A stretch of DNA of 64,000 bases from an uncultured Vicinamibacterales bacterium. GTDB lineage: Bacteria > Acidobacteriota > Vicinamibacteria > Vicinamibacterales > UBA8438. The DNA lies in NCBI GenBank assembly GCA_958295905.1, contig OY282382.1, positions 2,752,001-2,816,000 of the forward strand, given 5' to 3'. The notes below the pieces were generated by a model. It was not told the DNA's origin and ran no database searches. It was given only the letters and a program-made list of their open reading frames with translations. A program made the translations under genes and the position numbers. Every line of letters begins with the position of its first letter. The first letter of the stretch is position 1. Shown here piece after piece: positions 15,677 to 52,711 of the stretch.

Positions 15677-17275
15677 CTACATGCCCCACACGACGATCGT
15701 GCGGCCGTCCCGGCGCACCTCGCGGCGAAACACCCGCTCCTCCCACGGTTTTCCTGCCGTGCGATCGAAGACGATCAGGTGGCCGGCCCCGCTCCCGCAC
15801 CGATCCATGTAGCCGAGCGTCTGCTCGACGCCCTGGCGGATGGTCCCCTCGAGACTCTGGCGGCGTCCCTCGTGCAGCACTTTGCACTCGATGATGAACT
15901 TGCGCCGATGCTCGGGCGGGCCGTCGCCCCCCGGCCAGAGGATCAGCAGGTCGGTGCGCCCCCGGCCCAGGCCGTACTCCCGTTCGATGCGTCCGCCGCC
16001 GTTCACCACCCGCTGCAGAAACGCCTGCAGGATGAGCTGCGGGCCCGCCTCCCGATACTCGAACCGTTCCAGCCAATGCTCGGAGTGCGCGCGGAAGAAC
16101 GCCTGGAAGGCGGCCAGCAGCCTGTCGAGGTTCAGGCCGCCGTCGGCATTCACGTACCAGGCGGCCTCCTGAGCCAGGCTGTCCTGCAGGACGTAGCCCA
16201 ACTCGCGCGGCACTACCTCGGCGTAGATGGGATTGGCGATGCGCGGCGGCGAGCCCTGGGCGACCAAGCCCAGGTTGCGGACGTAGTCTAGATCGTGGAG
16301 ATCGTACCGGGGCTCGTCGCCGCCGCTCAGCATGGGCTCGACGACGCGCCGTACGCGCGCCTCTTGCAGCTTGTGGGCGAGCTGGTCGAGGTGGGTCCGC
16401 CGGCTCACGATCAGCCGCTCGCGGGCGTCGGCGATACCGGCCCCGGTGATGGCGCGCGAGCGGTCGCGGCCGGCTTCGCGCTCGAAGCAGGCGTCGGCGC
16501 AGAGCGCGTTCACCAGCCAGGGCTGGCCCCGGGTCTGGGTCCAGACCATCTCCAGGGCCTCGGGCGTGAACGCCTGACCGGTCGCATCGGTATGCTGCGC
16601 GAGCAACGCGCGCGTTTCGGCCTCGGAGAAGTCGCCGAGCCGCAGCGACTCGGCCACCACGTTGAACGGGCTGCCGCCGGCGATCACCTCTCCGGAACGG
16701 GAGCGGATGCGGTAGTCCTGGATGTCGCGCACGCCGCACAGCACCACGCTTTGCGGGAACCCCTCGGGCCGCTGCTCGTAGCCGGCGCGCAACTGACGGA
16801 GCACGGACAGCAGCGTGTCGCCGACGAGCGAGTCGATCTCGTCGACGAGCAGGACCAGCGGCGTGGGGTCGGCCAGGCACCAGCTCGTCAACGCCTCGCT
16901 CAGGGCGTCGTCGGGGCCGGATTTCGCCAGGATGCCGGGCCAGGCGTCGTGCAGGAACTCGTCGCCGGACAGGCGCGCCCGAGAGGCCAGCCGGCTCAGG
17001 ATGGCGCGAATCGCGCGTCCCGTGTCTTCGCGCGCCGCCTGACCGACCTCGACGTTCGTGTGCACGCACCGGAAGTCGCCCGCCCCGCCCCGGTTCAGCA
17101 GGTTCCGCAGGGCGATGAGGGTGGACGTCTTGCCCGTCTGCCGGGGCGCATGCAGCACGAAGTACCGCTTGCGCCGGATCATGTCCAGGACGCGGTCGAG
17201 GTCCAGCCGCTCCAGCGGCGGAACGTGATAGTGGTCCTCGGGGCGAACGGGGCCTTCCGTGTTGAATCGGCGCAT
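15677..17275 (-). CDS. AAA-like ATPase with C-terminal PD-(D/E)XK nuclease-like domain
   Basis: This 532-residue protein starts at ATG 17275. Walker A is HAPRQTGKTST (residues 42-52) and Walker B is PLVLLVDEIDSLVG near residue 140; an arginine-rich sensor region follows (GVRDIQDYRIRSRSG). Residues about 250-330 form a helical lid. The C-terminal part GLGRGRTDLLILW ... KFIIECKVLHEG gives the D and E-x-K signature of PD-(D/E)XK nucleases. This two-part design matches the AAA-like ATPase/nuclease proteins often annotated as hypothetical and linked to mobile DNA or defence. A MITE-like element begins 52 nt upstream of its start. An analogous protein of a related family lies at 50104-51642. Confidence 0.8.
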   Translation of the reverse strand: MRRFNTEGPVRPEDHYHVPPLERLDLDRVLDMIRRKRYFVLHAPRQTGKTSTLIALRNLLNRGGAGDFRCVHTNVEVGQAAREDTGRAIRAILSRLASRARLSGDEFLHDAWPGILAKSGPDDALSEALTSWCLADPTPLVLLVDEIDSLVGDTLLSVLRQLRAGYEQRPEGFPQSVVLCGVRDIQDYRIRSRSGEVIAGGSPFNVVAESLRLGDFSEAETRALLAQHTDATGQAFTPEALEMVWTQTRGQPWLVNALCADACFEREAGRDRSRAITGAGIADARERLIVSRRTHLDQLAHKLQEARVRRVVEPMLSGGDEPRYDLHDLDYVRNLGLVAQGSPPRIANPIYAEVVPRELGYVLQDSLAQEAAWYVNADGGLNLDRLLAAFQAFFRAHSEHWLERFEYREAGPQLILQAFLQRVVNGGGRIEREYGLGRGRTDLLILWPGGDGPPEHRRKFIIECKVLHEGRRQSLEGTIRQGVEQTLGYMDRCGSGAGHLIVFDRTAGKPWEERVFRREVRRDGRTIVVWGM

Positions 17276-17326
17276 GGGTCCCAGTATGCGCCCCGGCGGC
17301 GCGATGCCACCACCCGGCCCGGACCG

Positions 17327-17499
17327 CAGGACCATCCCGCGCTCCGCCACCGCCGTGCGCAGGCGGAATCGTGGCGGGTCCTGGGGTTCCGGACGTGCGG
17401 AATCGTGGGTCTCACGCGGCGCCGACCGGTCGGCAAGACGGTGGCGACCCCTCGAATCGGGGGCGGGCCGTCACGCGTAGTCAGCGTGGGATGCTCCTG
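17327..17499 (+). mobile_element. MITE-like element, copy A
   Basis: A 173-bp non-coding element. Its ends are inverted repeats: the left end CAGGACCATCCCGCGCT matches the reverse complement of the right end, CAGGAGCATCCCACGCT, at 15 of 17 positions. It is flanked by a perfect 9-bp direct repeat CCCGGACCG (17318-17326 and 17500-17508), the signature of transposition. A second copy lies inverted at 52065-52236. Inside is a direct repeat GCGGAATCGTGG at 17363 and 17397. It encodes no transposase and must have been moved in trans. Confidence 0.85.
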
Positions 17500-17508
17500 C
17501 CCGGACCG

Positions 17509-18845: not shown

Positions 18846-18857
18846 CTGCGCGACTGC

Positions 18858-19010
18858 GCGACCTTCGGTCGCGTTGGCAGTTCGCTGGCGCGAACTGCTG
18901 CGGCGCAAGCTCCTTGCGGGCACGTTGGCAGTTCGCTGGCGCGACCGCGCGACCTTCGGTCGCGTTGGCAGTTCGCTGGCGCGAATTGCTGCGGCGCAAG
19001 CTCCTGGCGG
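18858..19010 (+). repeat. Palindromic tandem repeat cluster
   Basis: A hairpin GCGACCTTCGGTCGC occurs at 18858 and 18949 (91-nt spacing), each followed by CGTTGGCAGTTCGCTGGCGC; a further copy of the latter lies at 18923 between them. The first hairpin begins 13 nt after the desaturase stop and could act in termination or mRNA protection. A related sequence (TTTCGCCGGCGCGGAACGCC) follows the peroxiredoxin gene near 26310, so this may be a dispersed family. Confidence 0.75.
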
Positions 19011-50103: not shown

Positions 50104-51642
50104 CTAGGTGCTTTCCACCTCGAAGGCGGCGATGTTGCGTTCCCGCTCACTGAATTCCACGCCGATCAGGTGGATCGGCTCGCCCAGGTGGCGGTACTTG
50201 TCCACGTAGCGCTTCTCCCTGAGCTGCGCCAGCGCTGCGCCAGCCCCGGCGGTCGTCTTGAACTCGAACACGCACACGCCGCCGTCGTGGCGTACCGCCA
50301 GGTCCGACCGCCCGCGACCCGTGCTCTCCTCCGCCGCCACTTCCAGTCCCGCGCCTGCGAAATGGGAATAGAACACACTGGCGTAGTATCCCTCGTAGTG
50401 GGCGATGTCGTTCTTCATGTGCCACTGATAGGGCACGCTCGCGAAGAAAGCGCGAAACAGGCGCTCCACGCCGTCGAAGTCGTGGTTCGCCAGCAGCCGG
50501 CGCAGGTGCGAGCACTCGGTCTGGGCCGGCACGTCCGGCGCCATCTCCGCCAGCAGGCTCATGTTCAGGCTGCAGCGCACTTCGCGGTTCGGATAACCCA
50601 GCCGATACAGGTAGCCGACCGCGTCGTGTTCTTCGGCGATGATCGTGAGGTAGCCGGTCTGGAACAGCAGCGCCTCGGTCTTCGCATGCTTCACGTCGGA
50701 CGCGGAGAGATCGGCGTCACCGACGACGAGGGCTTCGAGCGCCGCCGGATCCACCTTGCGTTCCAGCAGCGTCTTCGGCAGGAAAGCCGGCGTGCCGGTC
50801 TCGAACCAGTGCGCCCTGAACTCGCGGCTGCGCAGGAACAGCAGCATGCCGTAGGGGTTGTAGACGTTCCGTTCGCCGCGCCAGTTGTAACCGTCGTACC
50901 AGTCGCGGACGGTCTGTCGATCCACCCCCTGGAGCTCCGGCGCGAATACCGTGTCCAGGTCGTCGTCGGTGTAGCCGCAGATGGCGGCGAAGCGGCGATC
51001 CAGCGTGAGGTCGGTGAGGTTGTTGAGCTCCGAGAAGATGCTTACCTTGCTGAACTTGCTCACTCCTGTGAAGAAACTGAACCGGATCAGCGCGTCGCTG
51101 TCCTTCACCACGCCGTACACGCCGCGCAGGAAGTCCCGATTGTCCTCCGCCAGCGCCTGGTCGTCCAGCGCGTCGGTGATCGGCCGGTCGTATTCGTCCA
51201 CCAGCACCACGACGCGTTGACCGCTCTTCTCCCGCAGCGCCTCGATCAACCCCGCGAAGCGGCCCTCGGGCGTGGCATAGTCCAACGCCACGCCGGCGGC
51301 GCGTTCAAAGGCGGCCAACTTGTCCGCGAAACTCGCTTCCAGCCGGCCGGGACGATTGAAGCGCCCCGCGGCGAAGCTGAATCGCAGCACCGGATGGCGC
51401 GCGGACCAGTCCCACCGGTCGTGGATGGCGAGGCCGCGAAACAGCGGCTCGTTGCCCTCGAAGAGCTCCTTGAGCGTGTCCACGAACAGGCTCTTGCCGA
51501 ACCGCCGGGGGCGCGAGAGGAAGTAGTGCTTGCCTTCCTCCACCAGACGCAGCGCGAAGGCCGTCTTGTCGACATAGTAGCAGTCGTCTTCGCGGATTTC
51601 ACGGAAGGTCTGAATGCCGGTGGGCAGCTTGCGTCGCTTCAC
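50104..51642 (-). CDS. AAA-ATPase-like / PD-(D/E)XK protein
   Basis: GTG 51642 begins KRRKLPTGIQTFREIREDDC, the standard N-terminus of this family (PF09820-type AAA-ATPase-like plus PDDEXK_9), giving 512 residues. Walker A is LSRPRRFGKSLFVDTL, Walker B VVVLVDEYDRPITDAL, and a long helical middle follows. The C-terminal nuclease-like part has STGRGRSDLAVRHDGG and VCVFEFKTTAG, the D and E-x-K positions. The family is hugely expanded in Bacteroidetes and others, with unknown function and links to mobile DNA. A MITE-like element lies 423 nt upstream of its start. Confidence 0.9.
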   Translation of the reverse strand: MKRRKLPTGIQTFREIREDDCYYVDKTAFALRLVEEGKHYFLSRPRRFGKSLFVDTLKELFEGNEPLFRGLAIHDRWDWSARHPVLRFSFAAGRFNRPGRLEASFADKLAAFERAAGVALDYATPEGRFAGLIEALREKSGQRVVVLVDEYDRPITDALDDQALAEDNRDFLRGVYGVVKDSDALIRFSFFTGVSKFSKVSIFSELNNLTDLTLDRRFAAICGYTDDDLDTVFAPELQGVDRQTVRDWYDGYNWRGERNVYNPYGMLLFLRSREFRAHWFETGTPAFLPKTLLERKVDPAALEALVVGDADLSASDVKHAKTEALLFQTGYLTIIAEEHDAVGYLYRLGYPNREVRCSLNMSLLAEMAPDVPAQTECSHLRRLLANHDFDGVERLFRAFFASVPYQWHMKNDIAHYEGYYASVFYSHFAGAGLEVAAEESTGRGRSDLAVRHDGGVCVFEFKTTAGAGAALAQLREKRYVDKYRHLGEPIHLIGVEFSERERNIAAFEVEST

Positions 51643-52064
51643 GGCTGCACCATACGCTCGGTGGAAACGGTCGCCCGGATGGAGCAGTTCGGCCGACCGG
51701 GACGGCCGACCGAAGGCGCCGCAGAGCGTCGTACGACGAACCGCCGAGCAACACACGATTACAATCCCCCGGTTCCGTGCTGGTCGAACCCTCCGAGGGC
51801 GCGCGTAGCTCTCGACGTAACCATCTTCCAGTCGCAGACGTTATACAGTCCGAACTGGGGATCGGCTCCACCGGGCCGAACAAGAAAACGGCCGCGGCCG
51901 ACTGATGCCGGCCGTGGCCTGTGTCCCGCCTCTGGCGCCCCAAATTCCAGATACCCGCTTGTTCGGTCCAGGTCCGAAGTCAGCTATGTTTTCCTGGAGT
52001 CGAACGGGACAGGTTCCAGTGTAGCAGGGTTTGGCCCAAACGCCGACCCGGTGCCTTGGGCGGG
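51643..52064. other. Intergenic stretch left of MITE copy B
   Basis: No gene is recognised between the ATPase start and the MITE-like element. It contains a GC-rich inverted segment around 51888-51920 (GGCCGCGGCC and GGCCGGCATC-type pairs) and no other clear signal. Confidence 0.4.
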
Positions 52065-52236
52065 CAGGGGCATCCCACGCTGACTGCGCGTGACGGCTCG
52101 CCCCCGATTCGAGGGGTCGCCACCGTCTTGCCGACCGGCCGGCGCCGCGTGAGACCCACGATTCCGCACGTCTGGAGCCCAGGACCCGCCACGATTCCGC
52201 CTGCGCACGGCGGTGGCGGAGCGTGGGATGGTCCTG
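52065..52236 (-). mobile_element. MITE-like element, copy B (inverted)
   Basis: A 172-bp copy, in reverse orientation, of the element at 17327-17499; by eye over 90 percent of positions match. Its terminal repeats are again CAGG-n-n-CATCCC-n-CGCT. It is flanked by TTGGGCGGG (52056-52064) and TTGGGGGGG (52237-52245), a 9-bp target duplication with one mismatch. It is non-coding and has no transposase. Confidence 0.85.
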
Positions 52237-52711
52237 TTGGGGGGGAGCAGCCACCGCGCCGGCAGGACGGGCGAGGTGCGGTTCGGGTGGGAGGTCTGCG
52301 CTTGGACCCTCAGGTCTTCATCTGTAGAATCTCCCGTGGCGGACGTCCGCCACGACGACAGGAAGCTGTCATGCCGCAGAAACTCTCCCGGACTCCCTGG
52401 CGCCGCGTGGTGCTGCCGGTGCCGGCCTACCTTCGGAGGTGCGGCGGTTCGTGATCGATGTCGTCGTCGGCCGGGTGCTGACGGCGGGCGGCGGGGGAGG
52501 TGGTCGCCGGGCTCGTCGACGCGACCACCGGTTATCTGCCGCACCGGTACAACTTCGGCTGGGGTGCCGCGCGGGCCGGTGCCTGCATCCGGTACGCGCT
52601 GTCGTGCAACCTGTCGGACCGGGTGCCCGGCGTCATGATCAACCGTGGAGATCGGTCCCCGCACGCGTGGCCGCATCTTCCGAAACGCGAACGGCGGCCT
52701 GGAGGCGCGGG
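52237..52711. other. Intergenic region with possible gene fragment
   Basis: The frame 52500-52718 reads VDATTGYLPHRYNFGWGAAR and ARAGACIRYALSCNLSDRVP, which is protein-like but unrecognised, lacks a good start and runs into the next gene. A 20-nt perfect palindrome is noted separately. No promoter could be assigned for the ATPase gene that follows. Confidence 0.35.
52335..52354. promoter_or_regulatory. 20-nt perfect palindrome
   Basis: CGTGGCGGACGTCCGCCACG is fully self-complementary. It lies 358 nt before the ATPase gene and 19 nt before a small ATG frame. It may be a dimeric repressor site; nothing else in the sequence supports a specific regulator. Confidence 0.3.

Follow-up and report, generated by a model that had tools for sequence, protein, structure and literature searches.

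A high-copy MITE family in a Vicinamibacterales genome and its probable mobilisation by an ISAs1-family transposase

Two copies of a short element in one genomic window

The window analysed here, a stretch of 64,000 nucleotides (G000:C1:2752001-2816000), belongs to the 6.3-Mb, 3-contig and 98% complete genome of an uncultured Vicinamibacterales bacterium. It contains two copies of a short element with inverted ends. A sequence-only reading had described a MITE-like element of 173 bp with 17-bp ends and a perfect 9-bp target duplication, together with an inverted second copy. Direct reading bears out both copies. Copy A starts with CAGGACCATCCCGCGCT and terminates, read as reverse complement, with CAGGAGCATCCCACGCT; the two 17-bp ends are identical at 15 of 17 positions, and a perfect CCCGGACCG abuts the element on both sides, with the base before it also fitting a 10-bp duplication. 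Pfam places copy A between two divergent genes, one for an AAA ATPase, which starts near 17275 on the reverse strand, and the other for a fatty-acid desaturase on the forward strand. The ends of copy B likewise match at 15/17 positions, and its flanks CCCCCCCAA and CCCGCCCAA form an imperfect duplication with one of nine bases mismatched (8/9 same).

Table 1. Coordinates of the MITE copies and associated features in the window.
Feature	Position	Strand	Basis or remark
Left copy of target duplication, CCCGGACCG	17318..17326		Read directly
MITE copy A, 173 bp	17327..17499	+	Sequence read; neighbours by Pfam
Copy A, left terminal inverted repeat, CAGGACCATCCCGCGCT	17327..17343	+	Read directly
Copy A, right terminal inverted repeat, CAGGAGCATCCCACGCT	17483..17499	-	15/17 to left repeat
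Right copy of target duplication, CCCGGACCG	17500..17508		Read directly
Paralogous empty site for the MITE at L008	19023..19150		91% alignment across insertion junction, element absent
Copy B flank, one side of imperfect 9-bp duplication	52056..52064		CCCGCCCAA read on reverse strand
MITE copy B, 172 bp, 95% identical to copy A	52065..52236	-	Sequence comparison
Copy B flank, other side of imperfect 9-bp duplication	52237..52245		CCCCCCCAA read on reverse strand

The genes near the two copies have features of their own. The AAA ATPase gene adjoining copy A (window 15680-17275) belongs to a many-copy gene family with about 71-75% DNA identity in relatives, and the gene beside copy B (window 50107-51639) is a predicted AAA-ATPase_like (PF09820) gene with a PD-(D/E)XK nuclease domain. 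Downstream of the desaturase gene, at window 18848-18895, a ~47-bp repeat matches dozens of places in genomes of the same genus and family, and it is therefore an interspersed repeat family distinct from the MITE.

Family size and restriction to one species

A scan of the whole 6.3-Mb genome for the end pattern CAGGANCATCCCACGCT, up to one mismatch being allowed, finds 237 + 242 = 479 ends. The same pattern read backwards gives 0 + 0 occurrences genome-wide, and the abundance of ends is therefore not due to chance. Copies were sampled at 97 of 100 listed end-pattern places and at the 30 best BLAST places, which yielded 97 distinct full copies; dimer partners are included in this number, and over-length copies were left out except for L003. 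The pattern, again with at most one mismatch, is passed by 90/97 left and 83/97 right ends. From these pass rates and the 479 ends we estimate that the genome holds roughly 250 MITE copies (240-270), a figure that depends on a sample chosen by good matches, and that the family makes up ~0.7% of the genome by end count. Full copies are 152-177 bp long, 82 of the 97 have CAGGA in place of CAGGG at the left end, and one copy among the BLAST matches listed lies on the second contig.

Outside this genome the family is not seen. None of 59 other genomes contains a full-length relative, five of them giving short matches only (up to 41 bases), and the left-end DNA pattern found no match in a genome-contig collection. 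The end pattern has a match in 13 of 119 other genomes, with several ends (nine) only in G012, a genome of the same family and another genus. On these searches, the genome-wide and relative-wide survey that the sequence-only reading had advised, the MITE family appears to be species-specific.

Target duplications and empty sites

Exact abutting repeats are present at 55 of the 97 full copies and measure 8 bp (3 copies), 9 bp (26) or 10 bp (26); when right flanks were shuffled, a mean of ~0.65 copies in total had exact 8-10-bp repeats. The 9-bp duplication claimed for the family holds for 26/97 copies and needs to be widened to include the 8- and 10-bp lengths. This sharp spectrum offers material to test how ISAs1 chooses its cut stagger. 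Two aspects count against an ISAs1-moved MITE: 42/97 copies have no exact abutting 8-10-bp repeat, and the share of perfect duplications barely drops with divergence (19/32, 19/32 and 17/33), a near-flat course that is not fully explained.

Empty sites, with one copy of the repeat and no element, are found for MITEs that have inserted into some other repeated sequence. The pairs are L125 with L134 and L017, L082 with L138, L161 with L087, L086 with L027, and L014 with L058 and with L198, the last in a same-genus genome at 75% identity; a further empty site, for the MITE at L008, lies in the window itself (Table 1). Self-matches inside dimers, MITE-to-MITE matches and the pair L126 / L027, which has a junction deletion, were left out of these comparisons. 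For copy A there is no clean orthologous empty site in the same-genus genomes G001 and G002, where the desaturase gene is conserved (~90% identity), the alignment breaks off short of the MITE and the ATPase side falls outside the same match; the empty-site evidence consequently consists of paralogous repeats and one same-genus match. A lack of empty sites had been named as the observation that would speak against insertion. Single-repeat sites do exist, and together with the copy number and the 8-10-bp duplications they support a MITE-like family with target duplication.

Nesting also occurs in the reverse direction, a resident insertion sequence having landed inside the MITE copy at L046. One MITE target is a dispersed repeat of ~130 bp or longer that includes an AT-rich part in this otherwise GC-rich genome (L017:2850-2978, L125, L134, L094, L133).

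A related insertion sequence in another genus

In G012, nine contigs run into an end of the MITE type and eight of the nine stop about 51 bases in, a pattern characteristic of multicopy elements that have been collapsed. The ends read CAGGACTATCCCACGCT (5) and CAGGGCCATCCCACGCT (4), and each matches the MITE consensus at 16/17 positions of the left end and 15/17 of the right end CAGGAGCATCCCACGCT. Pairing of flanks, possible for 3/5 left ends, gives the duplications CGTCTTCGAC, TGGGGGAGG and GAGCTTGAC of 10, 9 and 9 bp. One contig reaches 420 bp into the element and encodes 70 amino acids of a transposase C-terminus. Its sole NCBIfam match is a weak one to NF033564 ISAs1 (E 0.013, below the cut-off, over the last 36 model positions), and Pfam gives no match. 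A tblastn search with this C-terminus returned 48 plasmid records, mostly Streptomyces; the best 20 of the 48 have 42-53% identity, and 14 of these 20 are annotated as ISAs1 family transposase. A search for a full-length insertion sequence with the same ends, proposed from the sequence alone, is thus answered in part: a multicopy element with ends at 16/17 to the MITE left end exists, and it is only partly readable.

Members of the ISAs1 family generally carry CAGGG-type ends and leave duplications of 8-10 bp. Among six annotated ISAs1 loci that we scanned, three have CAGGG inverted ends with exact 10-bp repeats. Inverted ends starting with CAGG and duplications of 8-10 bp are accordingly common to ISAs1 and the MITE, whereas the MITE of the window is only 173 bp long, has no transposase gene and mostly begins with CAGGA instead of CAGGG. 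Through G012, the MITE shares its ends with an element whose transposase is ISAs1-like in its C-terminal 70 amino acids, and duplications of the length left by ISAs1-mobilised elements occur at the MITE copies, in G012 and at the three annotated loci. Several points count against the ISAs1 explanation. The readable part of the G012 transposase is confined to these 70 residues, below the NF033564 cut-off and without a Pfam match; the MITE interior has no recognisable sequence in common with the readable parts of the G012 element beyond the ends; and the other three annotated loci gave no end-plus-duplication pair in the scan.

A transposase relic in the host genome

The transposase had been reported absent from the window, and the absence extends further: the whole genome has 0 matches to PF13808 and 0 to NF033564. 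Instead of an intact ISAs1 transposase, which would be expected for an active family and is not required of an orphaned one, only a relic is present. At C1:4722710-4722790, 27 amino acids are 74% identical to the G012 C-terminus, and at the DNA level ~107 bp are 84% identical to the G012 element. The G012 C-terminus matches only two of 162 genomes of the order, that of the window and G012 itself. The relic implies that an element closely related to that of G012 was formerly present in the host. No recognisable inverted end lies near it, and as the original ends are uncheckable this too weighs against ISAs1.

Origin of the family

Our preferred interpretation, to which we assign a probability of roughly 0.88, is that the 173-bp element is a non-autonomous MITE whose 17-bp ends would be recognised, and the element moved in trans, by an ISAs1-family transposase. 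The enzyme would bind the ends CAGGAnCATCCCACGCT and join the MITE to staggered target cuts of 8-10 bp, so that a direct target repeat would flank each insertion. The mover may have been a transposase of the G012 type or its lost local ortholog, with amplification presumably ending when the transposase decayed. Most likely, the family is an orphaned ISAs1-mobilised MITE in a genome that has since almost entirely lost ISAs1.

The genome is rich in other potential movers, with 68 matches to PF01609 spread over many multicopy insertion sequences, and a resident DDE_Tnp_1-type insertion sequence or another resident transposase might have moved the MITE in place of ISAs1. We consider this very unlikely, as none of the 49 PF01609-group loci read (of the 68 matches) is itself bounded by the 17-bp ends, and the good end matches at L046, L059 and L137 are nearby MITE copies; on the boundaries of these 49 loci we rejected an origin from the resident PF01609 insertion sequences. 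The MITE might also be active to this day through an intact ISAs1 element that the assembly, with a completeness below 100%, fails to include, and the perfect duplications kept by many copies would suit such continuing activity. Divergence from the consensus argues against it, with a median of 4.0% and a range of 1.2-11.0% over the 97 copies: even the least diverged copy is 1.2% off, and each of the 97 sequences is unique. Combined with the lack of any ISAs1 model match (PF13808, NF033564) in the genome, this makes present activity unlikely, and we read the divergence as the outcome of an old burst with neutral decay since then.

According to another interpretation, the repeat is a structured RNA gene, a regulatory RNA or a REP-like palindrome kept for its function, and the flanking repeats are incidental. 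A copy does fold better than shuffled sequences (z -3.0), which the inverted ends by themselves would produce. Compensatory changes are found at 0/46 predicted pairs in 60 of the 97 copies and no Rfam family reaches threshold, so that selection on an RNA fold is not apparent and a structured-RNA role was rejected. The 8-10-bp duplications and empty sites show insertion, and as a primary identity the functional RNA or palindrome is disfavoured and extremely unlikely. Exaptation of single MITE copies is possible.

Relation to known MITE families

Bacterial MITEs described in PMC11578231, PMC4596501 and PMC3542288 are linked to IS1182, to IS5 or to no element in the genome, and number from 1-3 to 147 copies per genome; a typical bacterial copy number is 10-20, according to PMC4596501. 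MITEPye1 of Paracoccus yeei resembles the present family in being short, non-coding and hairpin-forming, with direct repeats and inverted ends that match an insertion sequence, but is linked to IS1182 and has 1-3 copies per chromosome (PMC11578231), as opposed to roughly 250 copies and probably ISAs1 here. BrickBuilt of Porphyromonas gingivalis has internal tandem repeats, as do the longer variants described below, whereas its ends match IS5-family elements and it has about 19 copies per genome (PMC4596501). MITEs linked to insertion sequences are well known, and it is the copy number that stands out here.

We found no literature linking a MITE family to ISAs1, which is weak evidence given that most subscription journals lay outside the search, and looking for work on transposable elements of this bacterial order in sponges was equally without result. 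The family was called unnamed in the sequence-only reading, and this description stands; its mover is most likely ISAs1, and a related insertion sequence is present in G012, from a different genus of the host's family. A bacterial MITE family of high copy number would thereby gain a named engine. The likely life story of a parasite can be followed in one place, from a near-matching insertion sequence that is multicopy in a relative, through a decaying relic in the host, to hundreds of orphans, some of them inside other mobile elements.

Dimers and longer variants

The sample contains seven head-to-tail pairs. In six of them (L004, L010, L022, L024, L085 and L104) the units are separated by 9-10 bp that repeat the outer duplication exactly or almost exactly, which is not seen in the seventh, L088. 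Dimer partners are 0.92-0.98 identical, whereas for random pairs the median is 0.914 and the 95th percentile 0.954; some dimers therefore look like younger duplications, and others cannot be told apart from pairs drawn at random. Internal repeats give rise to longer variants of 236-441 bp, and most of the seven examined have 9-10-bp duplications of their own. L097 contains three 134-bp units. L003, entered among the 97 as a copy of 173 bp that lacks a duplication, is a variant of 244 bp flanked on either side by GCCCAAATG. In L112 no array was detected by TRF, and its internal duplication is accordingly drawn from BLAST pieces.

Dimers that share the middle duplication could have formed by replication slippage or unequal exchange between short flanking repeats, and we infer that slippage between short repeats, brought together by the hairpin ends, is the simplest account of the rearranged copies. 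Head-to-tail MITE arrays in corals are likewise ascribed to replication slippage (PMC2872659), although those are eukaryotic and piggyBac-related. The dimers and multi-unit variants could instead be products of ISAs1-type transposition itself, a tandem-amplifying mode in which repeated insertion at, or copying through, the element's own target duplication would keep that duplication between and around the units; we know of no description of such a mode for ISAs1, and we regard this as improbable. Dimers sharing a duplication are material to test how short flanking repeats rearrange in the presence of hairpin ends.

One MITE dimer lies inside a 5.15-kb segment that is present in five chromosomal copies of 99.9-100% identity (L213:8498-13647; L214, L215, L216 and L217). 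The segment is bounded by inverted ends GGGTGCACGTCAGATTTGTGAGA and flanked by repeats (in L217, for instance, ATCGACGGG); it encodes an ISKra4-family transposase and has passenger genes for citrate synthase and LarB. L216 also has a 1.9-kb copy without passengers. The 5.15-kb segment looks like a transposon carrying central-metabolism genes.
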